Positions 41,111-64,000 of a stretch of DNA of 64,000 bases are shown here, piece after piece. The first letter of the stretch is position 1; every line of letters starts with the position of its first letter. A program made the position numbers and the translations under genes. This DNA comes from Mesorhizobium huakuii. Its GTDB lineage: Bacteria; Pseudomonadota; Alphaproteobacteria; Rhizobiales; Rhizobiaceae. The notes beneath the pieces were generated by a model that saw only the letters and a list, made by a program, of their open reading frames with translations, was not told the DNA's origin and searched no databases. Location of the stretch: NCBI RefSeq assembly GCF_014189455.1, contig NZ_CP050297.1:1-64000 (forward strand), read 5' to 3'.

Positions 41111-41866
41111 ATGGCTGCTATTTCCGATCCCGAACTAGTGACTCTCTCTGCTCGTTCACGTGGATTTTTCACGCACGCTGAGTTATTTGCTCCCGGGTTC
41201 CCCGATGCGATCTTGGTGCGCGGCAGGTTTGATCACGAAAGCTACACGGATGACCTGTTTAACCTGCTAGCGTTACACTGCCCCGCCAGTCTGTCTGCAG
41301 CGGTGTCCATGCGCCGTGCTGAGTTTTTAGCCGGGCGAGCGATGGCATACGCGGCATTGCGGGCGCTGGGTCAGGCCGCTGCTGAGATTCCAATCGGCCC
41401 AGGCGGGGCTCCACTCTGGCCCCCGTCTTCCGCTGGTTCAATAACCCATACGCGTGGGCATTGCGCTTGTTTCGCCATCGCCGGTGGGAATTGGCGGGTA
41501 GGTGTCGACGTTGAGGCGCTGGCCAGCGGTGATGCTCTGGATGCGATTCTAAACATGACCACCAATGAGGATGAGCGTGCCTTGATCGCTAGACAAGTGG
41601 TCCTCGCTCCAGACTGGCTGGCGAGCCTGGTTTTTTCGGCCAAAGAAACACTCTTCAAAGCGCTCTATCCTGTGGCAAGGCGCTTTTTCGGATTCGACTG
41701 TGCAGAGTTACGAACGACGCCCAGAAACGGGCAACTACGACTGCATCTAACACAAACTATCTGTCCCGAATTGATCGAGGGTCAGCACTATGACATTCGT
41801 TTTAGCATCGCTGCTGGCCATGTGTTGACCTGGTTGGCAGTAACACACCAGCATGTGTCAATGTAG
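41111..41866 (+). CDS. 4'-phosphopantetheinyl transferase, EntD/Sfp type
   Basis: The 251-residue enzyme would transfer phosphopantetheine from CoA to the carrier-protein serines of the adjacent NRPS and PKS. Motifs: RRAEFLAGRAMAYAALRALG, then GSITHTRGHCACFAIA, the Mg-binding GVDVEAL near residue 134, and the signature FSAKETLFKALYP (W/F-[ST]-x-K-E-x-x-x-K). Its length matches the EntD branch. It has its own AT-rich promoter region and is followed by an IS110 element. Presence inside the cluster argues that the pathway is self-sufficient. Confidence 0.92.
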   Translation: MAAISDPELVTLSARSRGFFTHAELFAPGFPDAILVRGRFDHESYTDDLFNLLALHCPASLSAAVSMRRAEFLAGRAMAYAALRALGQAAAEIPIGPGGAPLWPPSSAGSITHTRGHCACFAIAGGNWRVGVDVEALASGDALDAILNMTTNEDERALIARQVVLAPDWLASLVFSAKETLFKALYPVARRFFGFDCAELRTTPRNGQLRLHLTQTICPELIEGQHYDIRFSIAAGHVLTWLAVTHQHVSM

Positions 41867-41918
41867 CGGACTCCGGCTGATACATTGTTAAGACTCCAGA
41901 AGCTTCGGAACCAGGGCC

Positions 41919-43220
41919 CTAGGCGGCTGCCGTCCGCCGCCGCGCCCGTCGATCAGGATAGCGCGTCTCCAGCAATACCACGCGGTGGTATGAGATACCT
42001 TGTGTCCAGCCTTTTTTTTCACGCCGTGATTTTGATGGCCGCGCGACGCTGTTGAGGGTCGTAGAGCGCCTTGTTGCGCCACGCCCTCCAGAGGACTTGA
42101 AGCCATGCTCGGGCGAGAATTGGAACAGCGTGCGGGTGCCTGCAGCCACGGTCACGGGCTTTTCGATAGACGGCCGCGCCCAGGCGGAGGCGTGACGGGA
42201 GTTGTCGGCAAAGCAGGTGAACGCCAATCTCAGGTTCTTGTTGCAGGCCCATCGGAACACAACGCCTCGGCTTTTGCCGGAGGCGTGGGTCACGGGACAG
42301 ACGCCGGCCTCGGCGGCAAGTTGGTCCTGCATCAGGAAGCGCTCGCGCGCGTCGCCGAGCTCAGGGAGGATCTGGGCGGCGCAAATGCGGCCTGCGCGCG
42401 GGAACGACATGACGATCTTGCCGTCGGGCAATTGGGCGACGGCGTGCTCGATGTGCGAGGACAGCTTGGCGATCTCGCAGACGAGGCGTTCGGGAATGGC
42501 GACCAATGCGCCGGCCAGCTCGCCTTTGGCGCCGGCCTCGGCGTCACCGGCCAGCCCTGTCGGCGCGGCTCGCAGTCGGGCCAGCAGGTCGGCCGGCGAA
42601 CGGCGCCCACGGTCGGCGTGTTGCGCCATGAAGCTAGCCAGACGTTTCTCGCCCAGGCGGCTGGCGCTGTCGGGAGTGGGATAGCGACCGACGAAGGCGA
42701 GCGCGATCGGGCTGTCGATGGCGGCGAAAATGGCGACTGCCCCTGGCCAGAAGCCTTCGAGCAGATTGCGGAGCTGGTTTGCCAATGCGACACGCTGGGC
42801 CACCAGGTCGTCGCGGCCGCGGACCAGGGCGCGCAACGCCCGGAAGTCATCGGAGACCGGCACAAGAGGCCGGAAGCGATGTCCGTCGGTGCGCAAGATG
42901 TCGGCCAACATAAAGGCATCGCCCGGATCGCTTTTGCCACCGGCGGCGCGGTACCGCGGCCTGCAGGCCTTGACGACGTTCGGATGGACCGGGATCACGG
43001 GATACCCGGCCTCTACCAAGGTATCGACGACCAGACCGGGTCGCTCGATGGCAATACGCAGTTCGGCTGGCGCCGCCACGCGCTTGGGCCGGGCTACCAT
43101 GTCAGCCAGCCCAGCCGCATCGTGGCGGACATCGAGACGCACGAGGACCGGGTCGACGCCGTCAATAACGCACATGGCATGGCTTACGCCGCCCCAGTCC
43201 AAACCTGCGTGAAATGGCAT
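41919..43220 (-). pseudogene. IS110-family transposase with C-terminal frameshift
   Basis: From ATG 43220 the DEDD domain (MPFHAGLDWGGVSHAMCVID...PAELRIAIERPGLVVDTLVEAGYPVIPVHPNVVKACRPRYRAAGGKSDPGDAFMLADILRTD) and the C-terminal IS116/IS110 region (VMSFPRAGRICAAQILPELGD...AEAGVCPVTHASGKSRGVVFRWACNK) are intact. Near 42165 the correct reading moves to another frame (YRKARDRGCRHPHAVPILARAWLQVLWRAWRNKALYD) and ends at 42019. The 433-codon frame therefore has a foreign tail. The insertion separates the phosphopantetheinyl transferase from the rest of the cluster. Confidence 0.83.
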
Positions 43221-43624
43221 ATGACCTTCTCGGATTGCTTAAAACTCACCCGAGCTGGGAGATCGTACGGATCGCTCACTGACAGGCGCTCTGCTGGCCA
43301 GCACTGGCGCTTCACCCTGTGGTCCGTCGCGGTCTCCCGGCACCTGCCGCGCGGCGGTCTCACACGGGCCGTCAACCGGCAAGCGCGCTTGGCCGTCACT
43401 GCAGATGCTCGGGCTGGCGGATGCTACGCCACTTGATCGCTTCGCACCCGCCAGCCCTGCTGTGCCACGCGTTTGCGATGCGGCCGCACTTCGTGCGTGG
43501 ACCAGCGGACCAGGGTTCGGGTGGGCTGGTGCCCCGCCGTTTTGATGCAGCGTGAAACGTGTTCACAGAGGCTTTCGAAGCACCCATTCCTGATGTCATC
43601 CCCAGTATTTGGAGATCATGCCAA
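43221..43624. other. gap upstream of IS110 transposase and GntR gene
   Basis: This region probably contains the 5' end of the IS110 element, whose boundaries cannot be fixed because the family lacks long inverted repeats, and the promoter of the regulator gene. No other gene was recognised. Confidence 0.35.
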
Positions 43625-44350
43625 ATGGCGACAAAAACCTTGAAGTACCAGATACCACCATTGAACGCTTCCCCGAGTTCGGCGATTGAGCATGTCTATG
43701 CCGAACTGAAGAACGCTTTGATGTCCGGGGAATTTTCGCCCGGGCAGCCGATGCGTCTCGGAGAACTGGCTGTCGCATTCGGCACAAGCCACATGCCGAT
43801 CCGCGAGTCGCTCAACCGGCTCAGCGGCATCGACATCCTCGAACGGGCGCCGCGTCAGTCCGCGCGCGTTCCAATAATCACTGCTAAAGGCCTACGCGAT
43901 CTCCTGGAAGTGCGCCTTCTGAATGAAAGGCAGGCCATCATCTGGGGGGCAAAGAAATCTACCGGGAAGAGCCTGAACTATATCAGAGAAATCAATGTCA
44001 AGATGGATCAACTCAATCTGGGGAAGAACGCTGAAGTGAAGAAGTATCTGAAACTGAACCAACTATTCCATTTTGCCGTTTACAACCTCTCTCAAAACAA
44101 AGTCTTGATGAACACGATCGAGACGCATTGGCTTCATGCGGGCCCGATCCTCAGCCTGAGGCGTAAGGAACCAAATTTTGTTCCGGGCCACCATAATCAT
44201 CGCGAAATCATCGACCAGTTGGAGAAGGGCAACGGCTTGGCAGCCGCCGACGCCCTCGAGCGCAACATCATAGAAGCGCATGAGCAGATTTTTGCGATTC
44301 TTGACAAGTCCGACCTGAAGGATCGTGCGGGAAATAGGGTCGGTGCCTAG
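43625..44350 (+). CDS. GntR-family transcriptional regulator (FadR/VanR-like)
   Basis: The 241-residue protein starts at ATG 43625. Its N-terminal winged helix is clear (EHVYAELKNALMSGEFSPGQPMRLGELAVAFGTSHMPIRESLNRLSGIDILERAPRQSARV). An all-helical FCD-type effector domain follows (LLEVRLLNERQAIIWGA...YLKLNQLFHFAVYNLSQNKVLMNTIETHWLHAGP...HREIIDQLEKGNGLAAADALERNIIEAHEQI) with the metal-binding His positions. It probably controls the downstream biosynthetic genes or a linked catabolic function, responding to a carboxylate ligand. Confidence 0.88.
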   Translation: MATKTLKYQIPPLNASPSSAIEHVYAELKNALMSGEFSPGQPMRLGELAVAFGTSHMPIRESLNRLSGIDILERAPRQSARVPIITAKGLRDLLEVRLLNERQAIIWGAKKSTGKSLNYIREINVKMDQLNLGKNAEVKKYLKLNQLFHFAVYNLSQNKVLMNTIETHWLHAGPILSLRRKEPNFVPGHHNHREIIDQLEKGNGLAAADALERNIIEAHEQIFAILDKSDLKDRAGNRVGA

Positions 44351-44828
44351 CTTAGGTAGGAACGCGGAAGCGTGCCTCGGGATGGTAACAGCTAGTATCC
44401 CTTGCTCGTCGAAGGCCATGCACGCAATTGCGGCTGTCGAATGCGGCGGGCATGGGGGAACCGATATTTCGGCGAAATCCAGCCGCCGCACGTCAGGCTG
44501 ATCGCAACGTCATCGCCGCACCACACCCTCTGGAAATGCGGTCGTTTGAAGCCTGCATCCGCATACCCATGGGACGGGCGGCCACCTGATAGACAAGTCT
44601 TTACCGAGCGGTTGTGGCGTAGCCACAAATACGGATGCGTCTTTCTTATGCCTTCGAGACCGGCAGCGAGCTGCCCGAGGAAGGACTACTGCATCCGGCG
44701 AAACTCGCACGCCTCGACCAAGATGTTAAACAAATGTGAAGTTTTGTTGAAAGGATTGACTGTGTAACTTGTCACGCATACACCGAAGCAAAGCTGTTTG
44801 GCAGTGTCCTCGCATTCTGAGTGAAAAG
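44351..44828. other. gap with an IS3-family OrfB remnant
   Basis: Around 44572-44690 the plus strand reads DRQVFTERLWRSHKYGCVF and then, in another frame, FETGSEL. This matches the integrase-domain end of IS3 OrfB proteins (D-N-x-F-x-E-R-L-W-R-S-x-K-Y). The rest is unassigned and should contain the promoter of the A-PCP gene. Confidence 0.55.
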
Positions 44829-46766
44829 ATGCAGAGTTTAACAAGGGCCGCAGGTCCGTCAGATCGGACCATTGCAGCTTCCGTGCTTTGGTATGCATCC
44901 GAATTTCCTCGTCGTCCTGCTGTCATTTTCGGAACAGAGGCGATCAACTACATGGATTTGTGGCTGCGAGCCTGTGAGATAGCTCGTGTCCTAAAAACTG
45001 GACGTGAAGCGGGTTTGGACCGCGTGGCCCTTTATTTTCCCATCGGTATTGACCGGATCGCGGCGATCCTCTGCTGTCAAATCCTAGGTGTTTCCTACGT
45101 TCCTGTGGAACCAAATCTTCCAGCGAGTCGCATTCGCGAGATGCTTGCGCAAGCGGATCCGAGCGTGCTCCTCAGTTCATCGGCCATCTGTTCGGCGATC
45201 CTCAAGGAGGTCTCGTCGTGCCCGACAGTGATGGTCGAGGAAGTTGGAGTGGGCGCAGCTGATCGTGGATCGTTGAGCCGAGATTTGGCGCTGCCGCCGA
45301 AGTCCGGTGGCTACGTTATCTTTACCTCGGGTTCGACTGGCAAGCCGAAGGCAGTCAACATGGGAGGAGCAGCACTTCAAAACCTCGTGGACTGGCAGAT
45401 CGAACTTTCGACGCTGTCAGACAATGCGGCAACGGCTCAGTTCGCCCCCATTTCGTTCGATGTATCGTTTCAGGAGATATTCTCCACGCTCTGTTCTGGT
45501 GGGAGTATCGTCCTCCTAGCGAATGAACAGCGGATCGACCCCGATTTGCTTTCGGACGAGATACTGCGTGCCCGGGTGGAGCGATTGTTTCTGCCATTTA
45601 TCGCTCTCCAACAATTGGCGTCGAATTGTGTGGAGCGCAATTTGTTTCCCGACAGTCTACGGGAGATCCACACCGCCGGCGAACAACTCGTGGTCTCTTC
45701 CGCTTTGCGCGAGTTTTTCATCAAGCTCCCCCAGTGTCGGCTCTTCAATCAATATGGTCCCTCCGAGACACACGTCGTCACCTGTCACGAGCTTGATAGC
45801 AATCCAGCGGAATGGCCTAGGTTACCGCCTATCGGTCGGCCTCTACCGAATGTCGTACTGTTCATTTTAGGTGAAGATGGCCGACCGGTGAGGTTAGGAG
45901 AGGTGGGAGAGTTGTATATTGGTGGCGTCTGCCTCGCGCAGGGGTATTTCCAGGACAAGGAGCGAACAGACGAACGGTTCATGACTATAGATATTAACGG
46001 CACGCCAACGAGATTGTATCGGACCGGCGACTTTGCGACATCAGATGAAAGTGGTTGTTTTTTCTTCTGTGGTCGCCGAGACCACCAAATCAAGATCGAT
46101 GGCTACAGGGTTGAACTTGGGGAAATTGAGAGCGTTATAGCGGATCACCCAGACGTAGCCGAAGTCGCCGTGGTTTTCGATCGTGATGCAAATGGAACGG
46201 GACGACTGATCGCCTGCCTGACGAACAAAGATGGGGCGCCAACCGACTGTCTCGAGACAGTAGTTCGCGCCCATGTCCGTGAGAAGCTCCCTGGCTACAT
46301 GGCGCCAGACCGTGTCCAGATCATCGGCGCGATGCCTAAAACTGCGAGTGGCAAGGTCGATCGGAAATCAATCGCGGAAAGGCTGTGTGCCGAAAAGGTC
46401 AACCCCTCGGCACCGCCTGTCGAGAAGCCAGCCTGTGCCACTACGAGCGGATCGGTGAAGAACAGCGATCTGTGCGGCGCGATCACCTCTTACTGGCGGG
46501 AGCTCCTGGACCACCCCTTGCTCTCGGACTCGGATAATGTGTTCGATTTTGGCGCGCGTTCGATCATGGTCCCGGAGCTTCAACGCCGCCTTCGCCGTCA
46601 ATTCGGGATTAGCATGCCCGCGATCTTGGTCTTCCGGCATCCTTCGCCGAGGGAGCTTGCAGACTTTTTATCGCGAAGATCGGCGAAGGGCGATGCATTG
46701 AACACGACGTTGGCTGGTCTCGCAAACCGGCGTGTGTCGACCAAAAGACGCGCTTCTCCGCGCTGA
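44829..46766 (+). CDS. NRPS-like protein: adenylation domain plus carrier domain
   Basis: The 645-residue protein has an A domain (A3 IFTSGSTGKPKAV, A4 FDVSFQEIFSTL, A5 NQYGPSET, A7 RLYRTGDFA, A8 GYRVELGEIE, A10 Lys in TASGKVDRKS) and a C-terminal carrier domain with Ser in FDFGARSIMVPEL. By eye, the specificity positions read D-V-Q-F-H-A-Q-V-V, which begins like proline-type codes; the true substrate is uncertain. It has no condensation domain, so it acts as a loading module, probably for the PKS that follows 89 bp downstream. ATG 44829 is preferred over TTG 44769. Confidence 0.88.
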   Translation: MQSLTRAAGPSDRTIAASVLWYASEFPRRPAVIFGTEAINYMDLWLRACEIARVLKTGREAGLDRVALYFPIGIDRIAAILCCQILGVSYVPVEPNLPASRIREMLAQADPSVLLSSSAICSAILKEVSSCPTVMVEEVGVGAADRGSLSRDLALPPKSGGYVIFTSGSTGKPKAVNMGGAALQNLVDWQIELSTLSDNAATAQFAPISFDVSFQEIFSTLCSGGSIVLLANEQRIDPDLLSDEILRARVERLFLPFIALQQLASNCVERNLFPDSLREIHTAGEQLVVSSALREFFIKLPQCRLFNQYGPSETHVVTCHELDSNPAEWPRLPPIGRPLPNVVLFILGEDGRPVRLGEVGELYIGGVCLAQGYFQDKERTDERFMTIDINGTPTRLYRTGDFATSDESGCFFFCGRRDHQIKIDGYRVELGEIESVIADHPDVAEVAVVFDRDANGTGRLIACLTNKDGAPTDCLETVVRAHVREKLPGYMAPDRVQIIGAMPKTASGKVDRKSIAERLCAEKVNPSAPPVEKPACATTSGSVKNSDLCGAITSYWRELLDHPLLSDSDNVFDFGARSIMVPELQRRLRRQFGISMPAILVFRHPSPRELADFLSRRSAKGDALNTTLAGLANRRVSTKRRASPR

Positions 46767-46854
46767 TCCTGGGCAGCGATGACCCCTCCAGCAGATCAGA
46801 TTAGCGCGCTCCGGAAGCCAAAAAGCAGATAAACGGACCAGCGACGAGGCAAAA

Positions 46855-49800
46855 ATGAACGGCCCCATTCACAGAGCTACCCCCATCGCGATTATTGGAA
46901 TGGCCTGCCGGTTCCCCAATGCTGATACGCCCAAGGCATTCTGGGAAAACATTGTTGCCGGGCGCGAGAGCGTTCGTGAGTTGTCGGATGTTGAACTCGC
47001 CGGCGCGGGCGTCGAGCCCGAGGAGTGGGAAGCGGACGATTATATCCGCCGCGGCGCCCCTCTTACGGGCCTCGGCTACTTCGACGCTGACTTCTTCAGC
47101 ATCACGCCTCGTGAGGCGGCACTCCTCGATCCGCAGCACCGACTATTCCTGGAAAACATTTGGCACGCCATCGAAGATGCTGGCTACGCCGTCCGTTCGA
47201 CCGAGATGACGACGGGCATCTATGCCGGCTCCGGCCCGAGCAGCTATTTCGCCAGATGCGTAGCCGGCTTGCATGATTTCCGCAAGGAAGGCATGCTCGA
47301 CTCCATGTCCGGCTTCCAGGCCATGCTGGGAAACGACAAGGATTACCTGGCGACTCGGGCGGCCCATCGCCTCAACCTCATCGGTCCCGCCATCAACGTC
47401 CAAACAGCTTGTTCAACCTCACTCGTAAGTCTCCATCTAGCCTGCAGCGGTCTTCAGAACGGCGAATGCGACCTGGCGCTGGCGGGCGGTGTCACGGCAA
47501 TCGTTCCCGACGGTGCTGGCTATCGCTATCAAGAGGGCATGATCTTGTCCCGCGACGGGCACTGCCGTCCGTTCGATGCCGATGCCAGCGGCACGGTGTT
47601 TTCGAGTGGCGTCGGCGTGCTTGCGCTTCGACGACTCGATGACGCGCTTGCCGATGGTGATACCATTCACGCTGTTATTCGCGGTTCGGCGATCAACAAT
47701 GATGGAAACGACAAGATCAGCTTCTCGGCGCCGAGCATCGAGGGCCAATCGAGCGTCGTCGCAAGAGCACTGATGAACAGTTCAATCGCGCCGGAAACGA
47801 TTTCCTACATGGAGACGCACGGAACGGGCACGAAACTGGGTGATCCGATCGAGATCGAAGCCCTCCGCGAAGTCTTCGCCGGCTTTCCGGCGGACGTCGC
47901 ACCGATCACCCTTGGTTCGGTGAAGGCCAATATCGGCCATACGATCGCCGCTTCCGGCGTCGCGGGTGTTATCAAGACCGTCATGGCACTGAAGTCGCGA
48001 ACCTTGCCGCCAGCGGTCAATTTCAAGACGCCCAATCCGGAAATCGACTTCGATCGCCTTCCCTTCGCCGTGCCGGCGAGCGCTGTGCCCTGGAAGTCCG
48101 AGGGTCCGCGACGCGCGGGCATCAGTTCGTTCGGCGTGGGCGGAACGAATGCCCATGTCATTTTGGAGGAAGCACCGGGCCAGACGAACGGTTCATCTCA
48201 GCCGGACGATGCGCCGCACCCCCCCGACGTACCTCGTACGCTGAACATTTCGGCACGCACGCCACAGGCCCTGGCCACCGTGGCCAAGAGTTTTGCCTTG
48301 CGACTCGATATGGCACAGCCCGACGAGCGCGACACCATCTGCTTCACCGCGAACACCGCCCGCCGCGCTTTTGAGTATCGGCGTTTCGCGACCGGTCGGA
48401 CAACTAGGGAGTTGGCCGAGAGTCTTCGCGCAAGCGATCATGCCCGCGTCGATGTCTCCAAACACGTGGTTCCCGCCGCCCTGTTCACCGGACAGGGCGG
48501 CCAGGGCGAAGCTATGGGGCGCGGGCTCTACGAGAGCGATCCGATCTTCCGCAAAGTCTTCGACGCCTGTGACGCGGTGGTCGCACCGCTTCGCAAACAC
48601 GGATTGGGCGACATCCTTTACGGCGACGGGACGCTCGCCCATTTCGTTCACGACACCGAATATACCCAGCCCGCCCTGTTCGCGATCGAACTCGCACTCG
48701 CCCGAGTTCTCGAGGCTAGGGGCTTCGTCCCAGAGATCGTCTTGGGCCACAGCATTGGAGAATACGTGGCGGCCCATCTTGCCGGCGTGTTCTCACTCGA
48801 GGACGGGCTGAAGCTGATCACCAAGCGCGGCGAACTGATGGGTCGGCTTCCTCGCAATGGCGGCATGGTCGTCCTGACGGCTGATCCGGACACAGCCACT
48901 CAGATGATCCGGGACAGCGAAGTCGAGCTCGCCATCGCGGCCGAGAACGGACCAACCAGTACGGTGGTCGCGGGCGAGACTGACGCACTTGAAACGCTGA
49001 TCAAGGTCGCCAAGGAAAAAGGCGTCCGCACGACGCAGTTGAAGGTCTCGCACGCCTTTCATTCGCATCTCATGGATCCAATCCTCGAACAGTTTGAGGC
49101 GTTCGCGAGCACCCTCGATTTTTCCAAGCCCGACGGCCGACTGATAAGCGCGAAGACTGGCAAGGTCGCCGGCGAGGAAGTCGCCGATGCGCGCTATTGG
49201 ACCGACCACGTTCGCCAGCCCGTCCTGTTCCATCAGGGCATGATGACTGCGCAGGAAATTGGGGCGAATCTCTTCCTCGAAATCGGACCGCACCCGGTCC
49301 TCACGCCGATGGCGCAGGCGGCCCTAGATGGCATTGCCTCGCAGTCGCAATTCGTCTCGAGCCTCAATCGCACCCGCAACGACGAAGAGGTTCTCGCCGA
49401 GACGGCGGGCCGCCTTTTCCTCGCCGGCCTTACGATCAATACGCTCATCGATCTGCCGGATAATGAACGCCGGCTCGTCGATCTTCCGCTCTATCCCTTC
49501 GAACGTCAGCATCACTGGATCGAAACGAGAGCGAGCGACCGGCTGGCATGGCACTGCCGCCGCGAATGGCACGCGGAAAAGCAGTCAGCGCCGCAACCGC
49601 CGAAAGACAAGGCCCTCTGGATTATCCTGGGCAATGCCCTTGGTCTCGCCGGACGCTTAGCTCAGGCGATCGAGACGAAGCGGGAAGGGCCGGAACAGAC
49701 AGCGGTCGTTCTTTCGAATGTCGACACAGGTCTCACAGGCGGTGTGCTCGACGCGCATGTCGCGGGGATCATCATCACCCCTGAGAGCGCGGAAGGCGCG

Positions 49801-52193: not shown

Positions 52194-52577
52194 CCTGACC
52201 ACCGGCTTCGAGCTAAGACAGATGCTTCCCCCATGCTCGCCGCTCGGCCGAAAAGTGGAACGCCGTCCTCGATGACTTCGTCTCAGATCCGGACATCATG
52301 GGGTCGGAACAAGAACTGTTCCCAGCGACACGCGGCCTTTATCAACCAAAGACAGCGACGGCTGATTTGAGGGCAAGTGCATCTTGCCAAACGGTTGCCG
52401 CCGCAAGAACATTGGGCACTTGGATTTGAACGCCTCTTGAGGTTGGTGCCGCTTCAATCAGCCCGTTTGCCGCCACTACAAAAGCGTTTTTCCGATGCGC
52501 AGAGAATAGATGTACCTACCAAGCGTTGATTGCTATGGATGAGTTTGTATCGTAAATATATTTTTAGAGGGGAAAGT
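52194..52577. other. gap between PKS and ferritin-like genes
   Basis: No gene was recognised. The last 80 bp are AT-rich and end in AGAGGGGAAAGT, a strong ribosome binding site for the next gene. A promoter is likely here. Confidence 0.4.
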
Positions 52578-53390: not shown

Positions 53391-53443
53391 GCGATGCGCC
53401 AAGGCACCTTGCAAGAGGCCGATGAACATGGAGTTTTCGAGCC

Positions 53444-53881
53444 ATGACATTGGAACATGCAAGGGGCGATATGGTCGCCGAGTTAAGCGGCGCCGCGGCG
53501 ACCGAAGAGCTTACAACGGTGCGCGGGCGCGTGCGGCAACGAAGGCTGTGGAGTTGCACTGAGAAGCGCGCGTTGGTCGATCTGGCGAGCGCGGCGGGGT
53601 CGTCGGTGACCGAGGTCGCGGAGGCGTTCGGCGTAGCTCCGTCACAGCTCTATGCCTGGCGCAAGCAGATGGCCGGCGGCGAGCTCGAGGCCGATCAGGC
53701 GATGGCAACTTTCGCGCGGATCGAAGTGAACGATCTGCCCGAGGTCGAGCGTCCCGTCGCCGATTGCCCGGACCCGGCCGGCAGGATCGTCGTGGCCTTT
53801 CCGAACGGCGCGCGATTGCGGATCGAGGGGACCGTCGATCCGACGGCGCTACGTATCGTCCTGGCGGAGTTGACCAGTTGA
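53444..53881 (+). CDS. tnpA: IS66 accessory protein TnpA (copy B)
   Basis: The 145-residue protein closely matches copy A TnpA (VTEVAEAFGVAPSQLYAWRKQMAGGEL), with substitutions mainly in the linker. The TGA overlaps the presumed TTG start of tnpB. It is a complete open frame. Confidence 0.9.
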   Translation: MTLEHARGDMVAELSGAAATEELTTVRGRVRQRRLWSCTEKRALVDLASAAGSSVTEVAEAFGVAPSQLYAWRKQMAGGELEADQAMATFARIEVNDLPEVERPVADCPDPAGRIVVAFPNGARLRIEGTVDPTALRIVLAELTS

Positions 53882-54227
53882 TCACAGTGGTGCCGACCGA
53901 CCGGATTTACTTGTGCTGCGGTGAGACCGATATGCGCCGCGGGATCAACAGCCTGGCGCGGATGGTGCAGCAGGTGCTCGCGCTCGACCCGCATACCGGC
54001 GCGATCTTCTGCTTCCGTGGACGCAAGGGTCATATCATCAAGGTTTTGGCGCATGACGACCAGGGGTTCTGCCTTTTACAAAACGGCTTTCCGATGGTTG
54101 TTTCGCCTGGCCGACCACCAAGGATCAGGTGACCGTGTCGCTCACTAAGGCACAGCTTTCGCTACTTTTGGACGGGATCGATTGGCGCCGGCCGAACAAG
54201 ATTTATCGACCACGTCTGGCCGGCTAA
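53878..54227 (+). pseudogene. tnpB: IS66 TnpB (copy B), frameshifted
   Basis: The frame begins MITVVPTDRIYLCCGETDMRRGINSLARMVQQVLALDPHTGAIFCFRGRKGHIIKVLAHDDQGFCL. It then goes out of register at CTTTTACAAAACGG (about 54073-54086), and the normal end (LLLDGIDWRRPNKIYRPRLAG) is in another frame, ending at 54227. The span is 350 nt, one base short of 351. Either the TnpB of this element is dispensable or another copy supplies it. Confidence 0.83.
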
Positions 54228-54298
54228 ATTCGGCCGTTCTCATTGATTTTGTGTCGATTTTGCTTCCGTAGACGAGGTCTTTCGGGTATGTAATTTGG

Positions 54299-55882: not shown

Positions 55883-56480
55883 GCGCAATCGATGACATGG
55901 CGCTGTCGGACGAGGCGCTCGAGGCCTGGATGGCCATCAAACCCGCCCCCCGCCCGCTGGTGCGGACGATGTCGGCGCTGGATGGCTTCGTAACGGCGGC
56001 GGTCACCGGGCCGCGGTTCCCGGACCCGCAATACTGGATGTGCCCGCTCATGGGGTTGCCGCGCGACGTCTTGGCCAAAGGATCTGCAACCGATCACGCC
56101 GTGTTTGCCAGCGTCGCCAGGATCCACAACCGGATCAACGAGACGCTCTTCGACAGACCGCAGGATTATGCGCCCCGTTTCGCCACCAAGCCCAGCGGCG
56201 GCATCGACCCGCGGCCGTGGTGCCAGGGGTTCTACGCGGCCATCAATCTCAACATCAAAAAATGGAAACGGCTACTCGACCTCGACAACCCCAACCACGG
56301 CCTGCTGCTGCCGATCCTGATCTACTGCGTCGACAAAAGGGGCGGCCCGTCCTCGGCAAGCCCAGGCCAGGGCCAGAGACCGCGCGCTTCATCGAGCATG
56401 AGGCCTACAAAGACATCGCCCTCGTCATCCCCGCCCTGCGCGAACTCCACTACGTCACCCGTTATGACGATCCGCAGTGA
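55879..56480 (+). pseudogene. UPF0149/YecA-like passenger protein (copy B), frameshifted
   Basis: It starts at ATG 55879 (MSAIDDMALSDEALEAWMAIKP...). It shows the same frame change as copy A at AAAAGGGG (about 56335-56342), after which GRPVLGKPRPGPETARFIEHEAYKDIALVIPALRELHYVTRY continues in the -1 frame to 56480. The span is 602 nt, two more than a multiple of three, as is the 605-nt copy A. The shared defect indicates it was inherited by both copies. Confidence 0.72.
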
Positions 56481-56562
56481 TCGGCGGCGACGCGGACCAA
56501 CGGCTTCCTACTATCTACTATAGAGCACTATTTCGGGAAAGGTGCCTTGGCGCATCGCTTAC

Positions 56563-56570: not shown

Positions 56571-56575
56571 GAACT

Positions 56576-57395
56576 GGCACTGTAAAGTTATCAGCGGATT
56601 GATGCAGCGATAGCTGGCCGGGACGGCTGTCACGCTGCGGCGAGACACGCGATTTTGTTCCAGATTTGCATGGCGGCGTTACGCAGGTCTCGATGTTGAG
56701 CCGATGACAGCGTATTGCGGGGAAAGTGGAACAGGTTGGCAATCGGATCATGGATGGAAACGAACCGCTGAAGCTGGCGTGCCGACTTGAAGCGTTTCAT
56801 GGTCCTTTCGCGTCGTCGGGTCGGCTGGTGCGAATTTTCCGCTCGATTATTGAGGCCTTTGTGCGACCGGTGTTCGACACCGGGCATGAGGTCGCGCCTG
56901 GCGGCATCATAGGACCGGAGCTTGTCGGTGATCATGACCCGTGGTGTCCGCCCTTGAGCCTTCAGCAACTTGCGCATCAGACGCTTTGCCGCCTTGGCAT
57001 TTCGGCGGCTTTGCACCAGCACTTCGAGGACGAAGCCGTCCTGATCGACGGCACGCCAGAGCCACTGCTTCTTGCCATTGATGGCCACCACACATTCGTC
57101 GAGATGCCATTTGTCGCCCAGGCAGCCGGCTGACCGTCGCTTGATCTCCCGGGCGAAATGCCGCCCGAATTTCTCCGCCCAGCTTCGAATGGTCTGATGC
57201 GTGACGATGATGCCGCGGGCCGCCAACATGTCCTCAACCATGCGCAGGCTGAGCGGAAAGCGAAAGTAGAGCCATACCGCGTGCGCAATGATCTCGGCGG
57301 GAAAGCGGTGGCGACGATAAAGCGGATCACGAGCAACTTCTGACATGGCCCATGTTCGCACATCTTCATCAGCCGTCGGTTAACTTTACGGTGCC
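56576..57395 (-). mobile_element. IS6-family insertion sequence (820 bp)
   Basis: The terminal repeats GGCACTGTAAAGTTA (56576-56590) and its complement TAACTTTACGGTGCC (57381-57395) differ at one position, which fits the IS6 family. It carries a single complete transposase gene. The flanking octamers GGAGAACT and GACCTGGC do not match, so a duplication is absent, as is common for IS6 cointegrate products. It lies only 5 bp from the IS66 target repeat. Confidence 0.88.
56630..57346 (-). CDS. IS6-family DDE transposase
   Basis: The 238-residue protein starts at ATG 57346 (MSEVARDPLYRRHRFPAEIIAHAVWLYFRFPLSLRMVEDMLAARG). The DDE triad is visible: Asp in KWHLDECVV, Asp in VMITDKLRSY and Glu in NNRAENSHQ. 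Length and motifs match active IS6 transposases, which move by cointegrate formation. A 60-codon relic of a similar gene lies at 28640-28821. Confidence 0.93.
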   Translation of the reverse strand: MSEVARDPLYRRHRFPAEIIAHAVWLYFRFPLSLRMVEDMLAARGIIVTHQTIRSWAEKFGRHFAREIKRRSAGCLGDKWHLDECVVAINGKKQWLWRAVDQDGFVLEVLVQSRRNAKAAKRLMRKLLKAQGRTPRVMITDKLRSYDAARRDLMPGVEHRSHKGLNNRAENSHQPTRRRERTMKRFKSARQLQRFVSIHDPIANLFHFPRNTLSSAQHRDLRNAAMQIWNKIACLAAA

Positions 57396-57472: not shown

Positions 57473-58825
57473 CTAGCTCAGCGAGGGCATTCCTTTAAGA
57501 ACGCCGATCTGCCCGCGAATTACAAACAGAGCAATCAGCCCCGCCACCAACTCAGCAACTGCCTGGCTGGCCAACAGTCCGTTAAAGCCCCAAATGACTG
57601 GAAACAGTAGTATGGCGGGTATGAAAAGGTAGCCTTGCCTGGCAAGGGAAACGACGGCACTGAGGCGTACTCTCCCCAATGACTGAAGCAGGGTGATCGC
57701 AACGTACTGAACACCAAAGAGGCCGAAGAAAAGATGGAAAACAATACAGGCAGAGACGGCGAGATCGATTACATCCTCGTTATCGCTGAAAAGCGAAACC
57801 ATTGGCCGAGCAAAAATCAGGACCACGGCGGAAAAGCTGACTGAAAATGCGACGGTTATGAAAAGCATGAACTTCGCGGCCTTCTCTACCCGGGCGAAAT
57901 CCTGTGCTCCCCAACCGAAACCGAGAACCGCCTGAGAGCCTATGCAGAAGCCGATAATTGGGAGTGCCCCGATCGTTGACAATCGCACGGCTATACCCAC
58001 AGCGGCAACGGAAGCGTCGCCGAATGGTGCAGCAGCACGGTAGAAGAGCATGAATGCAACGGCAGACAAAATACTGGTGATAGTTGCCGGCGCTCCAATG
58101 GCGGCGATCTGTTTGATGCGGCCCACCCTGAAGGTAATGTAAGAAGTTCCGATACGAACAATCCCACACTTCTTTAGGAAATATGCGATGTAGACGCTGA
58201 TAGCGGCGATCTGAGACAACAGCGTCGCAAGCGCCGCTCCTCGAACGCCCAAATCTAGCAAGAAAATGAAGATAGGATCGAGCACGGTATTCAGCGCGAA
58301 AGCCGTAATCATGGTCCACATGCTGAATCGTGTATTGCCCTCGGCCCTTACGATGAACCCATTGACAATGTTCAGCAGCATGAGAGTGTAGCCGAACAAG
58401 AGCGTCGATGCGTACTCAAGCGCGGCCGGCATGATTGTCGGACTGGCGCCAAGCATAGCGAGAATCTTGCGCAAAGACAGAAACAGACCGACAGTAAGAC
58501 CCACTCCGATCGGAACCGCGAGAGCGAGCGCCAAGCTCGCGCCGCGACTCGCCTCAAGCGAGTTGTCAGCGCCAAGATTGCTAGACACGAATGATGCTGT
58601 GCCTACGCCGAGCCCCTGTCCGACTGCCAAGAGGAGGACAACGATCGGGAAAGTCATGCTGACGGCGGCGATAGCCTGTGCCCCGAGCGTGCCAACAAAG
58701 ATCGCATTCACGAACTGCTGAAGCGCATTGATCGACAAGCCAATAATCGAAGGAATGGCGAGTCGCATGATGAGGCGGGAAAGTTTTTCGTCCGACAGAT
58801 TAATGTGTTGTTCCGGTGCTGCCAT
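57473..58825 (-). CDS. MATE-family efflux transporter
   Basis: The 450-residue polytopic protein has about 12 hydrophobic helices and two MatE repeats (ISTPSIIGLS-like start LAIPSIIGLSINALQQFVNAIFVGTLGAQAIAAVSMTFPIVVLLLAVGQGLGVG; second repeat beginning near IGAPATITSILSAVAFMLFYRAA). MATE proteins export drugs or natural products using proton or sodium gradients. It follows the NRPS gene on the same strand with a gap of 62 bp, so it is the likely exporter of the NRPS-derived product. Confidence 0.93.
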   Translation of the reverse strand: MAAPEQHINLSDEKLSRLIMRLAIPSIIGLSINALQQFVNAIFVGTLGAQAIAAVSMTFPIVVLLLAVGQGLGVGTASFVSSNLGADNSLEASRGASLALALAVPIGVGLTVGLFLSLRKILAMLGASPTIMPAALEYASTLLFGYTLMLLNIVNGFIVRAEGNTRFSMWTMITAFALNTVLDPIFIFLLDLGVRGAALATLLSQIAAISVYIAYFLKKCGIVRIGTSYITFRVGRIKQIAAIGAPATITSILSAVAFMLFYRAAAPFGDASVAAVGIAVRLSTIGALPIIGFCIGSQAVLGFGWGAQDFARVEKAAKFMLFITVAFSVSFSAVVLIFARPMVSLFSDNEDVIDLAVSACIVFHLFFGLFGVQYVAITLLQSLGRVRLSAVVSLARQGYLFIPAILLFPVIWGFNGLLASQAVAELVAGLIALFVIRGQIGVLKGMPSLS

Positions 58826-58887: not shown

Positions 58888-61800
58888 CTACACATCTTCA
58901 GATGTATTGATTATCTGGAGCAGTTCCTGGCGCAAGATTGTGCAGAGGTTGCGGGTCGTTCCATAGCCAACTTGTCTTGGATCGTATCTCACTTCGATTT
59001 GTAGCTCGCCAGCTTCGTATCCGACACGAAACCAGAAGAGGTAGTTCATGGCGGACTGCTCCATATCTTCGCCGATCCAAAGTGAGTGCGGATCTCTGGC
59101 TAGCAGACGCCGTGGATAATGGCGTTGCAGTCGTGCTCGATAGTTCAGTCCGATCCTAGGCAACGGCAAATGATCGATCCGCTTCCGCACTGCCGGATCC
59201 CGATTCAAGAACTTCATCGCCCGAAAACCGATCCCCCGGCGCGGCAGCGCGTTGCGCTGCCGATATATCGAACGAGCGCGATCCGGACGAGACTCCTTCC
59301 CAGTCAGATATAAGGGAAGCGGAACCAGTTCGCCGACATAGCCGATGATCTGAGACGGATCGATGTCGTCGAATAACTCACCTCTGGTCGATGTGAGGCT
59401 GTCGATCCAGAGCGAGTAATTCCCGAAAGCGCGGCCAAACGCCCCTGACACAGCCGCAAGGAATATATCAAAATCCTCGCATTGCGCAGACGTCGCCGAG
59501 ACATTGAGAAGTCTGGCCGTCGCCTTCTCGCCGATCGTTACGCAATATTTGGCCTGATCTTCCCACAGTTGGCTGCAATATTCTTCATTTACCAATCCCT
59601 CCAAGCGGGCGTAATGGAGCCTTCTTGCAGTTTCATCTAAAAATTCCGCTGTACCCGAGCCAGCATCGCTCACATGCATATCGAGCAGATCATATCGAAC
59701 CCCCTCCCAATATTCGAGTTCGGTTGGCGCTTCGCTATCTGCGTAATGGCCCAATCGCTCCAGCCACTGAGAGAGAGGCGTCGTCTCTGGATCCGCAATG
59801 GTCCCGCCTACGGCTAGCGTATTGTAGGCTGTTTCCAGTGCATTTAGGAACAGTCGGTACCCAGTCCCGTCAGCTACAAAGTGATGCATCAAAACAAGCA
59901 GATAGTAGTTGCCGCTCTCTGATGTCCGGAAGGCTGAAAGCCTGACGAGGGGTGTCTGACCGTCAAACCGAAACCTGGTTTGACGCTCTGCGCAGGCGCC
60001 TTCGATGACCGTCAGCTGTTTTGCCGTGGCCATGCCGACCAGGTCTATTTCTTCCACGAGGGGATTGGGTACCGATCCGATTGCCTGAGATAGGCCGCTC
60101 TCGGTTTGGACTATTCGAAGTTTCAGTCCTTCGTGCCGACCAATGACATGAGCAAGGGCGCCTTCAAGGATTGATAGATTCAGGAGACCCGCGGGCAGGA
60201 AGAAAAGGTCGCCAAGGTTGTAGTGCTCGCCTAATCCGACAAGGCTGTTCCAAGATGAGACGGCGGGAGTCACTCGCAACGGTCCATCGGGAGCCTCATA
60301 GGCAGAGATCGTCGTGGCCGATGCGATTTCCTTGGCCAATTCCCGAATGGTCGATGTTCTGTACAGTTGGCCAACGGTCAAGCTCAGTCCGGCTTTACGC
60401 GCTAATGTAACGCAACGCACACTCAGAAGAGAGTTTCCGCCGATATCAAAGAAGCTGTCATCGATCCCGATGGATTTGGCGCCTAACAGTTCTTGCCAGA
60501 TCTCGGCAAGAAGTCTCTCCCGCTCCGTGCGCGGCTCAGTAGATTGGGCATTCCGAAGCTCGCGGGATCGGACAGAAGAGAGGCGACGACGATCTATCTT
60601 CCCGCTCGCCGTCAGTGGCATACGGTCCACCATGCGAAAATCGGATGGAATCATGTAGGGCGGCAATTCCTGCCGTAGGTGATTCACAAGGTCTCCTGAG
60701 GTAAGGCCGTCGTCAGTTGGGACCACTATGGCCACCAGTCGGCGATTGTCATCCACTCCCCGAACGACTGCGGTTGCCCTGGCAATGCCAGGATGCGCTT
60801 CAAGGGCGGTTTCGATTTCCTCCAGCTCAATTCGGAAACCTCGGAGCTTGATTTGATTGTCCGATCGACCGCAAATCTCCAAAACACCTTTGGCTGAGAC
60901 GCGGGCGATATCGCCACTGCGATAAAGAAGGCCGTATTGGCAGTCATCGTATGGATTGGGCACGAAACTTTGCTTCGTTCGCTCTGGGTCCCGCCAGTAC
61001 CCCGTGCTTACGCAGCGTCCCGCGACGCAGAGTTCGCCTGCTACCCCGACGGGAACCCGCTCCAACTGTGCATTGAGCACATAGATCTTCACATTGTCGA
61101 TTGGGCGCCCGATCGGCACAGCTTTAGAGCCATCGTCCGCCTCCGATGTTGCGTAGACTGCCGCATTAGACGCGCATTCCGTGGCGCCATAAAAATTCCA
61201 TAGCGGCACATCTGGAAAGCTCTGTCGCCAACGAGAAGGAAGCGATGGCGGCATCGGTTCAGCACTGCTTGTGACTAGGCGCAAGCTGGTCGTTTCCGCA
61301 TGTCGTTTTTGAGAGGCGATCAGACCGGACAGAATGGGCGGGGAAGCGAACAACCGAGTCACGCGATGCCTAGTCAAGGCACTCAACAAGAGGTCGGGGT
61401 CGAGCAACTGGTCATCGGTCAGGATCAGCGTTGGGACCCCCTTCAGGAGTCCTCCAAAATACTCCCATGCTGCGGCAACAAGTCCCGCCGACTTCTGAAC
61501 AACGATCACGTCGGCGCCATCAAACGGAAAGCATCGCCACATCCAGTTCAGTCGATTGAGTATTGCGGGCTCAGGTATGAGAACGCCTTTCGCCTTACCC
61601 GTTGAGGATGAGGTGTAGATCAGGCTGGCTGCGCTGTTATCAGGCTGCTCGACCTCGCAGTGCATTGCCCGAACGGGGTAGTATCTCGCCTGCAGGAAAG
61701 ACAAGCTAACGGACGGCACACCGAAATCGATCTCTTCGTCCGCGCTGGCGTGAATTAGGAGCTTTGCACCGCTATCTCTTACAACGTGGCTGATCCGTTC

Positions 61801-64000
61801 CTTCGGGCAATCTGGCGATATAGGCACGACGGTCGCCTGCATTGCCCGGATAGCCAAAGTTGTAGTGGCCACTTCAGGTGACCGGTCGATCAGCATGGCG
61901 ACCATGTCGCCCGGCCCTACCTCGCCGGTACGCAGAGCGGACTGGATCGCCGCCATGCGTTCGCGCAGTTGGCCGAACGTGACTTCTCCGAACTCGCCGA
62001 AATACGCCACCCCGTCGTTCTTTGCGCTGACCTGATCGAAGGCTTCCACGAGCGAAGGTTCGTTCTCATATACCTGCTCAGGGCCCTTGAGCGCGTCCAG
62101 CATGGCGACCTCCGAGGGGCACAGGCAGGTCAGGGCGACAATCGGCTCAGCCGGCCTGTCGACACAGGCAGCAATAAGATGGCGAAGATTGGCGGCCATG
62201 CGAGCAATCAGGTCACTTGAAAAAATGTCTTCCGCATATGCCAGTTGCAGCGCAATCGCATCGCCCTGGTCTTGCGCATACAGGGTAAGGTCGAACTTCA
62301 CATAGCCTGTGTCATATTCACGAAACGTCAGATCCAAATCGCGTTCGGCCGGTGGCTCCTGGGGTTCGGAGTACATGTTGAACATGACTTGGAAGATTGG
62401 AGATCGACCGGCTTCGCGGTACAATCGGGCGTCCCTCACCATCCAACTGAATGGATACGCCGAGTTCGCGATGGCATCGCTGACAAGGGCTTGCACATGA
62501 GTTACGTGAGCCACAAAGGACTTATTGACATCGATCGTCGTTCGGATTGGTAGCATATTGAGGAAAAAGCCAACGATCTCCTCAGTGCCTGTCTGGTCGC
62601 GCACGACGTGTGGTATACCGACGATGATATCGTCCTGGCCGCTATACATCCGCAACAGGAGCTTAAAGCATGCCAACAGGATCGTGGATGTGGTGCACCT
62701 GTGCCGACGTGCAAAACCCCTCACTTGATCGGACAGTTCTTCACCAAGGGGAACCGCATGCGAGGCTCCACGGTAGGAACTCCCTTTCGGCCGGGGTCGA
62801 TCACTCGCTAACAAAAGCGCGGGCGGATTGTCGCCGATCTGCCCACGCCAGTAGCGCCGCTGCTCAACCAGCAAGTCCGGTGTAACGTGTACACTTTCCC
62901 AGAGCGCATAGGCCGATAGTGACACACGATGCTCTGGAGAGAACGGGGCAGCATTGGAGTATCTCGTTCGCAAGTCTCTGAGCAGGACGGAGATCGACCA
63001 AGCATCTATGATGATTTCGTGTGCGGTTATCAGTATTAGATGGTCGTTCGCGGCAAGGCGGATCATGCGCGCACGAAACAAATGGCCCTGACTGAGATCA
63101 AAGGTGTGGTTGAGCTCGGTCCGCCGCATCTCCGCCACAAGCTCCTCAGCCTCCTGTCGCGTAAGGTGAGTGGTGTCAACCAACTCTAAATTGGCGCAGT
63201 GCGGATCATCAAAAATCTGGACCGGCCCGTCTTCGTCGCTGAAACGTGCCGAAAGCGCGTCGTGGGCCCCGACGACATCGATCCAAGCTTCATTGAAAGC
63301 AGTCAGATCGATTGCTCCTCGTATACGCACGCCACCTTGAACGACGTAGTTCTTCGCATCCGGATCGAGCTGCCAGAGGAACCACAGGTGTTCCTGCACC
63401 CGTGTCAGCGTTGATCGTCCGTGCTTTCGGCCCACTGGAAGCACGTTATGTGTCGTTTCGGATTGGCTTGATAGCGATGCCGCCAGCGACCTGACGGTCC
63501 CATTTAGCACCAGCCTGAAATCCACCTTCGCCCCGAGCTGCCTCTGTAGCTGGGCTAATATAAGCATCGCCCGTAGCGAATCCCCGCCAAGGTCCATGAA
63601 TTGGTCGTTCACGCCGATACCTTTGATGCGAAGAACGCTGGACCAGATATCTCGCAGCTTGCTTTCGAGCTCCGTCTTTGGTTCCTCCAACGGATTCAGT
63701 AGCTGAGGGCGAATGGTCGCCGGATCCGGCAAAGCTGCAAAGTCGACTTTCCCGTTTCTGGTAATTGGAATGCCATCGACATGAATGATTCGCTCCGGGA
63801 CCATGTAGGCAGGAAGCGTTTCGGCAACAAAGCTTCGGAGTCCGCTTTCCAAGACTTCGGGAGGGGCCGATACATAGGCCACTATTCGTCTTGGCCTGAT
63901 CCCTCCGTCGGCCTTGGTTATGTCTCTTGCTGTAAGCTTCACGCCTTCATTGACGGGTGCTACGGCGACGGCGCCACTTACCGAAGGATGGGTGCAGAGC
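58888..64000 (-). CDS. non-ribosomal peptide synthetase (A)-PCP-C-A-PCP-E, 5' end beyond the window
   Basis: The frame is open to the window edge, so the gene starts outside. Visible order: end of an A domain (A10 Lys in TRNGKVDFA), PCP (DLGGDSLRAM), C domain, A domain (A3 IYTSSSTGKAKGV, A5 WNFYGATEC, A8 GFRIELEEIE, A10 TASGKIDRR), PCP (DIGGNSLLSV), and a terminal epimerisation-type domain (MHHFVADGTG, STRGELFDDIDPSQIIGYVGELVPL, PRIGLNYRAR). The C-domain core reads AHEIIIDAWS, so the catalytic second His of HHxxxDG is Glu. The A domain has V-A-A-A-W where Asp235 is expected, hinting at a substrate that is not an ordinary alpha-amino acid. No thioesterase follows. Confidence 0.92.
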   Translation of the reverse strand, partial: LCTHPSVSGAVAVAPVNEGVKLTARDITKADGGIRPRRIVAYVSAPPEVLESGLRSFVAETLPAYMVPERIIHVDGIPITRNGKVDFAALPDPATIRPQLLNPLEEPKTELESKLRDIWSSVLRIKGIGVNDQFMDLGGDSLRAMLILAQLQRQLGAKVDFRLVLNGTVRSLAASLSSQSETTHNVLPVGRKHGRSTLTRVQEHLWFLWQLDPDAKNYVVQGGVRIRGAIDLTAFNEAWIDVVGAHDALSARFSDEDGPVQIFDDPHCANLELVDTTHLTRQEAEELVAEMRRTELNHTFDLSQGHLFRARMIRLAANDHLILITAHEIIIDAWSISVLLRDLRTRYSNAAPFSPEHRVSLSAYALWESVHVTPDLLVEQRRYWRGQIGDNPPALLLASDRPRPKGSSYRGASHAVPLGEELSDQVRGFARRHRCTTSTILLACFKLLLRMYSGQDDIIVGIPHVVRDQTGTEEIVGFFLNMLPIRTTIDVNKSFVAHVTHVQALVSDAIANSAYPFSWMVRDARLYREAGRSPIFQVMFNMYSEPQEPPAERDLDLTFREYDTGYVKFDLTLYAQDQGDAIALQLAYAEDIFSSDLIARMAANLRHLIAACVDRPAEPIVALTCLCPSEVAMLDALKGPEQVYENEPSLVEAFDQVSAKNDGVAYFGEFGEVTFGQLRERMAAIQSALRTGEVGPGDMVAMLIDRSPEVATTTLAIRAMQATVVPISPDCPKERISHVVRDSGAKLLIHASADEEIDFGVPSVSLSFLQARYYPVRAMHCEVEQPDNSAASLIYTSSSTGKAKGVLIPEPAILNRLNWMWRCFPFDGADVIVVQKSAGLVAAAWEYFGGLLKGVPTLILTDDQLLDPDLLLSALTRHRVTRLFASPPILSGLIASQKRHAETTSLRLVTSSAEPMPPSLPSRWRQSFPDVPLWNFYGATECASNAAVYATSEADDGSKAVPIGRPIDNVKIYVLNAQLERVPVGVAGELCVAGRCVSTGYWRDPERTKQSFVPNPYDDCQYGLLYRSGDIARVSAKGVLEICGRSDNQIKLRGFRIELEEIETALEAHPGIARATAVVRGVDDNRRLVAIVVPTDDGLTSGDLVNHLRQELPPYMIPSDFRMVDRMPLTASGKIDRRRLSSVRSRELRNAQSTEPRTERERLLAEIWQELLGAKSIGIDDSFFDIGGNSLLSVRCVTLARKAGLSLTVGQLYRTSTIRELAKEIASATTISAYEAPDGPLRVTPAVSSWNSLVGLGEHYNLGDLFFLPAGLLNLSILEGALAHVIGRHEGLKLRIVQTESGLSQAIGSVPNPLVEEIDLVGMATAKQLTVIEGACAERQTRFRFDGQTPLVRLSAFRTSESGNYYLLVLMHHFVADGTGYRLFLNALETAYNTLAVGGTIADPETTPLSQWLERLGHYADSEAPTELEYWEGVRYDLLDMHVSDAGSGTAEFLDETARRLHYARLEGLVNEEYCSQLWEDQAKYCVTIGEKATARLLNVSATSAQCEDFDIFLAAVSGAFGRAFGNYSLWIDSLTSTRGELFDDIDPSQIIGYVGELVPLPLYLTGKESRPDRARSIYRQRNALPRRGIGFRAMKFLNRDPAVRKRIDHLPLPRIGLNYRARLQRHYPRRLLARDPHSLWIGEDMEQSAMNYLFWFRVGYEAGELQIEVRYDPRQVGYGTTRNLCTILRQELLQIINTSEDV

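Follow-up and report, generated by a model that had tools for sequence, protein, structure and literature searches.

What the polyketide synthase (PKS) encoded near one end of contig NZ_CP050297.1 of Mesorhizobium huakuii makes, and what use its bearer might have for the product, is the question raised by the DNA analysed here. This stretch, called the window throughout, comprises bases 1-64000 of a contig of 331,450 bases (C2) in a genome of 8.45 Mb and 4 contigs (G000). For most orphan PKS and nonribosomal peptide synthetase (NRPS) clusters the product is hinted at only by the order of the domains. In the present case a co-occurring catabolic operon mirrors the assembly line, and thereby offers an independent reading of the bonds in the product, which would be those of a β-hydroxy acid, probably a lactam, yielding acetoacetate. 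We propose, with a probability of about 0.5, that a mobile two-protein line makes a β-hydroxy-γ-amino acid or its lactam, and that the operon imports and dismantles the same product; these bacteria may thus both make and eat a private compound.

The assembly line consists of a stand-alone loader with adenylation (A) and peptidyl carrier protein (PCP) domains, and a type I PKS with ketosynthase (KS), acyltransferase (AT), ketoreductase (KR), acyl carrier protein (ACP) and thioesterase (TE) domains. They are accompanied by a phosphopantetheinyl transferase (PPTase) and a GntR regulator (Table 1). An earlier sequence-only reading had named the A-PCP protein, a dedicated PPTase and the regulator, and all three were recovered by Pfam; the hybrid pathway of loader and PKS that it proposed is real. 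It had also suspected an undescribed pathway, and no title or abstract in the open-access literature searched describes this A-PCP and PKS combination; the unit is a known enzyme type in an apparently undescribed pairing. Among the 15 PKS proteins chosen for motif comparison (that of R. sullae is outside the motif table), the KS C-H-H, KR S-Y-N, ACP DSL and TE C-D-H motifs are present without exception, and the nucleophile position of the TE is a Cys (GFCYGG) in 15 of 15, in line with the previously proposed Cys-TE. The AT is of the HAFH type, which we take to specify malonyl, with ASH in place of HAFH in A. vitis, S. arboris and R. etli 8C-3, and the KR carries VxD; the meanings of HAFH/ASH and VxD, like the glycine and proline code tables, are taken here from general background. 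The PKS relatives L016-L025 were drawn from the best 80 of 536 confirmed stretches.

The substrate of the loader was approached through the A-domain codes of 24 aligned loaders, 12 taken from our loci and another 12 picked out of 120 listed among 1256. The code DVQFHAQVVK is found in half of them (12/24), including all 6 from the window, pMLa, BT03, WSM4083, G089 and Breoghania. A further 6/24 carry DVQF[IVY]A[QH]VVK, presumably the proline pattern, and the other 6/24 have a glycine-type code. The best PDB match of the A domain is LgrA, with a score that sums two A domains and is uninformative on substrate. From these motifs, the A domain would load proline or a close relative, the KS would extend it with a C2 unit from malonyl, the KR would give a β-hydroxy thioester, and the Cys-TE would free a β-hydroxy-γ-amino acid or its γ-lactam. 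If the substrate is proline, the predicted products are 3-hydroxy-3-(pyrrolidin-2-yl)propanoate or 1-hydroxypyrrolizidin-3-one. Conservation with BT03 and others indicates that the likely start of the loader is an ATG at ~44829.

The mobility of the unit, and its tie to the operon, emerged from comparison with other replicons. Over window positions 41000-52202 the identity is 99.2-99.3% to pMLa of M. japonicum MAFF303099 and to MesoLj131b2 of Mesorhizobium sp. 131-2-5; pRspBT03a of Rhizobium sp. BT03 matches the stretch from GntR to the PKS at 89% identity. In pMLa an operon lies upstream of the PKS unit, past an element of the IS110 family of insertion sequences (IS). It encodes a GntR regulator, lactamase-type HyuA and HyuB, a β-keto acid cleavage enzyme (BKACE), a short-chain dehydrogenase/reductase (SDR), a LIV-type ABC importer and a 4HBT thioesterase; the counterpart in G000 is at C2:238416-249811. 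In a set of 146 genomes of the genus, comprising G000 and others such as G009, G018, G024, G045, G051 and G089, the PKS thioesterase region was detected (E<=1e-60) in six: G000, G009, G018, G024, G051 and G089. BKACE at >=89% identity is present in exactly those six (E<=1e-130), with a further copy at 77%, bearing an in-frame stop, in G045. Fisher's test gives p 8e-11, or 6e-10 with G045, values that treat the genomes as independent; since they are not, p is no more than indicative. As a control, a gene lying 1.3 kb from the PKS in pMLa turned up in 3/146 genomes, 2 of which also have the PKS (p 0.004). BKACE served as the operon marker in this survey, and the operon itself was read, with its genes compared by tblastn, in G000, G009, pMLa (=G018), G051 and G089.

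Proximity adds to this correlation. PKS and BKACE share one contig in G000, G009, G018, G024 and G089, and lie on separate short contigs in G051. On a 25.6-kb contig of G089 the operon and the PKS unit stand side by side in divergent orientation, with no IS between them among the open reading frames (ORFs) read: leftward run acetoacetate-CoA ligase, LivFGMHK, SDR, BKACE, HyuB and HyuA, and rightward GntR, thioesterase, one unassigned ORF, PPTase, GntR, A-PCP and PKS. Among 72,556 plasmid records, a PKS of the window clade (>=86%) occurs in 3 (NC_002679, NZ_AP023250 and NZ_CP125646), and BKACE at E<=1e-90 is found in only 4, these 3 included; the fourth, from Phyllobacterium zundukense, has the module with a 3-oxoacid CoA-transferase beside it. 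BT03 carries the PKS unit and the operon functions on one plasmid, in another gene order: GntR, BKACE (71%), SDR (59%), LivKHMGF, thioesterase, HyuA (32%) and HyuB (25%). A short BKACE-like remnant also lies between GntR and A-PCP in BT03 (L010:15832-15939), with two stops in the longer match. By co-occurrence and adjacency the link between PKS and operon is well supported, in a small sample.

The operon proteins belong to families whose chemistry reads as the reverse of that of the PKS. The nearest solved relative of HyuA is N-methylhydantoinase (419 bits), followed by a 5-oxoprolinase entry (335) and carboxylases (<=238), and the best NCBIfam matches of HyuA and HyuB are caprolactamase alpha and beta, below cutoff. 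BKACE is assigned at family level (PF05853, 308 bits), and the SDR best matches the FabG model, with 3-hydroxybutyrate dehydrogenase models among the next. In G089 the acetoacetate-CoA ligase scores 1024 bits against a cutoff of 521, and the 4HBT protein best fits the C-terminal part of the carnitine 3-dehydrogenase model (6.8e-7, 28 bits against a cutoff of 592). The predicted sequence of events is: 1) import of the product by the LIV-type transporter; 2) ATP-dependent ring opening by HyuAB; 3) oxidation of the β-hydroxyl by the SDR; 4) cleavage by BKACE with acetyl-CoA to give an aminoacyl-CoA and acetoacetate; and 5) release of the amino acid by the 4HBT thioesterase, after which acetoacetate would be activated. 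Both the product and its make-and-reuse role are what we infer from gene content and motifs.

In the window itself the PKS is not one unbroken gene. The KS-AT-KR-ACP-TE synthase of the sequence-only reading holds as to domains, all of which are detected by Pfam, and not as to frame: in pMLa it is a single 1780-aa protein, for which Pfam gives KS-AT-KR-ACP-TE, and in the window two frames meet at a one-base indel in a G run at ~50047-50053 (alignment with pMLa). The run has 6 G in the window versus 7 in pMLa and 131-2-5, and the window is the sole out-of-step locus at this site among 8 compared, of which L016 and L134 are from the same strain. The HyuB gene of G000 is likewise interrupted by an indel in a G run, so that a sequencing error is a reasonable alternative to real decay; equally, with such indels in both frames, this strain may have an inactive pathway. 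The PKS of LSJC280B00 (L016) also occupies two ORFs and has ~95 bases fewer than the window (L016:1701-1704 versus window 50986-51084), and that of R. sullae is likewise in two ORFs.

A number of observations weigh against a single make-and-reuse pathway. A P. zundukense plasmid carries the module and lacks this PKS, and the records with BKACE at E<=1e-90 include none of the plasmids bearing the PKSs of R. sullae, R. etli and R. gallicum. Seven genomes or records outside the genus were searched for BKACE: the 19.5 kb around the BKACEs of P. corrugata and Pseudomonas sp. SJZ074 (57-59%) yielded no other module gene, Breoghania (BKACE 47%, SDR 45%) and R. sullae (BKACE 48%, SDR 31%) are without HyuAB in the stretch, and P. 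cichorii and A. vitis gave no BKACE match. In G000 the PKS and the operon are ~190 kb apart, and in G051 they are on different short contigs. Several copies of the genes look damaged: HyuB is two-framed in G000 and G051, HyuA is so in P. zundukense, and the G051 PKS is short by ~95 bases. Furthermore, the relatives of HyuAB include carboxylases, six genomes are few, and pMLa, 131-2-5 and G000 share near-identical DNA.

Regulation belongs on the same side of the balance. In each of the five Mesorhizobium loci whose gap between GntR and HyuA was read, the catabolic operon shows two TTGATCNNNGATCAA sites at a spacing of 89-90 bp; this twin operator was not found at the PKS unit. What occurs there is one degenerate TTGATCNNNGATCAA site inside the PPTase gene (2 mismatches in the window, pMLa and 131-2-5; 1 in G009) and another inside the A-PCP gene, sites at chance level. 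An operator common to both GntRs, which are 42% identical, was accordingly rejected; with PKS-unit sites only degenerate and in coding sequence, co-regulation with the operon is not shown. Two further candidates fell away. A strict NifA/sigma54-type pattern, TGGYRY-N5-TTGYW (the one pattern used), has no site in window 41000-52202, and the palindrome TGTGGCNNNGCCACA upstream of A-PCP is exact in the window, pMLa, 131-2-5 and WSM4083, and not in BT03 or G089.

These data can be read in other ways. The PKS unit and the operon might act on different molecules and travel together only by way of common plasmids, which we consider unlikely: both do reside on plasmids rich in IS (of the three that are named, two are typed as conjugative), and the near-identity of pMLa, 131-2-5 and G000, the enrichment of the control gene itself, the want of a common operator and the P. 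zundukense module without PKS all suit such a history. However, the control gene is in 2/6 of the PKS genomes versus 6/6 for BKACE, the two units are directly adjacent in G089, and divergent versions of them are found together again in BT03. Somewhat less probable still is an operon that degrades a plant compound, with the PKS making a mimic or competitor of it, or one that protects the producer from its own product. Nutrient use would be in keeping with the LIV-type importer and the acetoacetate-yielding chemistry, with the operon lacking a PKS in P. zundukense from a legume nodule, and with carnitine degradation, where a dehydrogenase likewise acts before BKACE (PMC12482172); yet this does not by itself predict the 6/6 co-occurrence, and an importer fits feeding better than self-protection. 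That in this strain the locus is decaying and makes no product is more probable than either of these, though short of even, and is compatible with any of the other readings. The split PKS and HyuB frames and the IS110 inside the unit speak for decay, but each of the two indels falls in a homopolymer, a frequent place for sequencing errors, and the DNA is 99% identical to pMLa, whose PKS is one frame.

Another rival is the one with which the analysis of this DNA began, namely a single hybrid NRPS-PKS cluster with a ferritin-like tailoring enzyme and a MATE exporter, which we now regard as highly improbable. All its genes do lie within 23 kb, and the MATE exporter and second NRPS are present by Pfam. 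However, the units are found separately elsewhere, two insertion sequences, IS66 and an IS240-type element, lie between them, and the ferritin-like gene is cut by IS66. No NRPS lies beside the PKS unit in pMLa, 131-2-5 or BT03 (12-15 kb each side, less at record ends). The NRPS-MATE part, from 57396 (where similarity to CP050295 starts) to the window end, shares 98.5% identity with plasmids from two Mesorhizobium of Oxytropis nodules and 77-80% with Sinorhizobium and Rhizobium plasmids. This segment is in 13 plasmid records (H4-H16) among the 20 listed of 137, and its own PPTase adjoins MATE in the two plasmids read. A related PKS thioesterase occurs in 10 plasmid records at E<=1e-40, none among the 13 listed NRPS-MATE records. 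In the genus set 5 genomes have the NRPS (E<=1e-300) and 6 the PKS; only G000 and G089 have both, and in G089 they are on different contigs. The gene set is real but mis-assembled, two clusters having apparently been brought together by mobile DNA; it looks like a single cluster because insertion sequences placed the two units together. The catabolic operon, which lies beyond the window on the same contig, is the better-backed partner of the PKS.

The make-and-reuse proposal can be set beside known systems. Rhizopines are inositol-type compounds, and the mos/moc genes of Sinorhizobium (Ensifer) meliloti L5-30 unite genes to make and to eat one of them in one strain. Make-and-reuse in one strain would resemble this opine/rhizopine-like logic, and the corresponding gene pairing is observed, with BKACE in 6/6 PKS genomes and on the BT03 plasmid, as a pairing of genes and not as a common compound. 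Unlike rhizopine, the present product would be an amino acid-polyketide; the PKS contig is not the one that bears nodA and nifH, and a NifA/sigma54-type site was not seen at the PKS unit. The fungal swainsonine synthase SwnK, with the order A-T-KS-AT-KR-T (T, thiolation), joins a cyclic amino acid to one malonyl unit and is one protein ending in a reductase; the likeness is by description only, and here there are two bacterial proteins with a Cys thioesterase at the end. In carnitine catabolism, according to PMC12482172, β-hydroxyl oxidation and BKACE cleavage are followed by conversion of an acyl-CoA to the free acid. The order of chemistry predicted for the operon is that of this aerobic route, in which carnitine dehydrogenase and BKACE act before betainyl-CoA is turned into glycine betaine. 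It differs in that, with BKACE present, the dehydrogenase is an SDR rather than carnitine 3-dehydrogenase and HyuA/HyuB are added. Product and purpose become testable in the sequenced rhizobium MAFF303099, and if the proposal is true the system would be the counterpart, among polyketides, of the opine/rhizopine idea, its relatives being candidates for a bacterial route to carnitine-like compounds.

Those relatives form a wider family. Loaders of Pseudomonas sp. SJZ074, P. corrugata, P. cichorii, A. vitis and R. sullae contain a methyltransferase (MT) stretch and the glycine-type code DIL?LGLIWK (position 4 is L in the alignment, Q by eye). These A-MT-T loaders accompany the same KS-AT-KR-ACP-TE with its Cys thioesterase, and their loci differ from the window in the methyltransferase stretch, the code and an OpuAC protein of the betaine-binding type beside the PKS. 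OpuAC is found in 9/9 relatives, from Breoghania, Pseudomonas, R. sullae and A. vitis (L018-L025) and R. etli 8C-3 (L153), by tblastn, with Pfam on four. Its motifs DGGWEN, WACRE and TYYW are invariant in 8/8 aligned, and two motif tryptophans align with Trp of the glycine betaine-binding protein 1r9l, which we take to be those of the ligand cage. An EamA/DMT-type transporter is near the PKS in Breoghania, five Pseudomonas loci, A. vitis and R. etli; none was matched in R. sullae with two tblastn queries only. A further, doubtful extension is that the PKS family is a bacterial assembly-line route to carnitine-type γ-ammonium-β-hydroxybutyrates; the rhizobial form would build a cyclic proline-derived analogue and carry a matched operon. 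In the Pseudomonas form, which this extrapolation fits best, its AT being HAFH-type, glycine would be loaded, N-methylated, malonate-extended and ketoreduced to give carnitine if trimethylated. No OpuAC was seen in the Mesorhizobium and BT03 stretches read, and none is close in G000 (best 22% identity), which weighs against carrying the idea over to the window cluster. Were it true, these bacteria would have a private nutrient or signal made by a polyketide route, and with it a chemically new class of opine. A necrosis-associated PKS of A. vitis has reportedly been described, and no link to the present family is claimed; PMC3098273 concerns another A. vitis gene set.

Table 1. Features of the PKS unit, the NRPS-MATE part and the DNA between them (window coordinates)
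Feature	Position	Strand	Basis
Sfp-type PPTase of PKS unit	41111..41866	+	PF17837 + PF01648
IS110-family transposase between PPTase and GntR, outside pathway	41919..43220	-	PF01548/PF02371
GntR/FCD regulator of PKS unit	43559..44350	+	PF00392 + PF07729
Stand-alone A-PCP loader ORF	44769..46766	+	PF00501, PF13193, PF00550
Type I PKS, KS-AT-KR-ACP-TE	46855..52193	+	Pfam; ORFs 46855-50271 (KS-AT) and 49911-52193 (KR-ACP-TE)
Ferritin-like gene, outside both clusters	52530..53390	+	PF12902, profile positions 1-138 of 221
IS66 element, 24-nt perfect terminal inverted repeats	53387..56562	.	Repeats 53387-53410 / 56539-56562; transposase 54299-55882
IS240-type transposase at NRPS-MATE border	56630..57361	-	PF13610
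MATE-family exporter of NRPS unit	57473..58825	-	PF01554; kept beside NRPS on other plasmids
Separate NRPS, cut by window end	58888..64000	-	Pfam Condensation, AMP-binding and carrier domains

Within the PKS unit the PPTase gene is shared with pMLa and 131-2-5, and is 90% identical in G009 and 87% in G089. The IS110 is also inside the unit in pMLa and 131-2-5, and no IS110-type ORF lies between PPTase and GntR in G009 and G089. The supposed VioB/RebD-type protein downstream does exist as a PF12902 gene, but its 286-aa ORF runs into the left IS66 end, with the stop codon inside the inverted repeat, and the synthase is incomplete, matching the VioB model at 24.6 bits against a cutoff of 1250. 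It is not listed beside the PKS in pMLa, and 11 plasmid records match it, the best at 47% identity and none covering 80% of the query. A truncated gene that is not beside the PKS in pMLa makes no biosynthetic pairing, and ferritin-like tailoring next to a Cys-TE PKS was dropped. A block with a KamA-type radical SAM protein, an amino acid permease and a gene weakly matching GntA (L013:14240-17848 versus L016:2834-6441, 98.8% identical DNA) lies directly downstream of the PKS in LSJC280B00 and ~20 kb from it in the window genome. KamA was rejected as a pathway gene, being found in only G000 and G051 of the 146 genomes; a distant KamA (27% identity) is near the PKS in BT03.

The symbiotic setting of the early reading holds for the strain, which has nodulation and nitrogenase genes, but with nodA at C4:409893 and nifH at C4:449326, C2 is not the nod/nif replicon. 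The adjoining secretion locus of the early reading is a type IV system of the conjugation type (T4SS-DNA_transf/TraG, TrbI, CagX, TrbL). Elsewhere in the window a group II intron match (D1D4-2, 112 bits) lies at 39653-39773 on the - strand, and an ORF at 29106-31394, also on the - strand, has a shikimate kinase domain in its second half. Extension of the contig past 64000, which had been suggested, completes the NRPS at G000:C2:58888-65337 (L013:889-7338): it is a 2149-aa protein of the order A-T-C-A-T-C (C, condensation), the second half partly read by eye, with no TE by Pfam. The usual Asp (position 235) of its second A domain is apparently Val, read by eye, and the protein ends in a condensation-type domain with HHFVADG. 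Further large NRPS genes, with open frames of up to 4358 aa, are found on the same contig at G000:C2:142784-160961.

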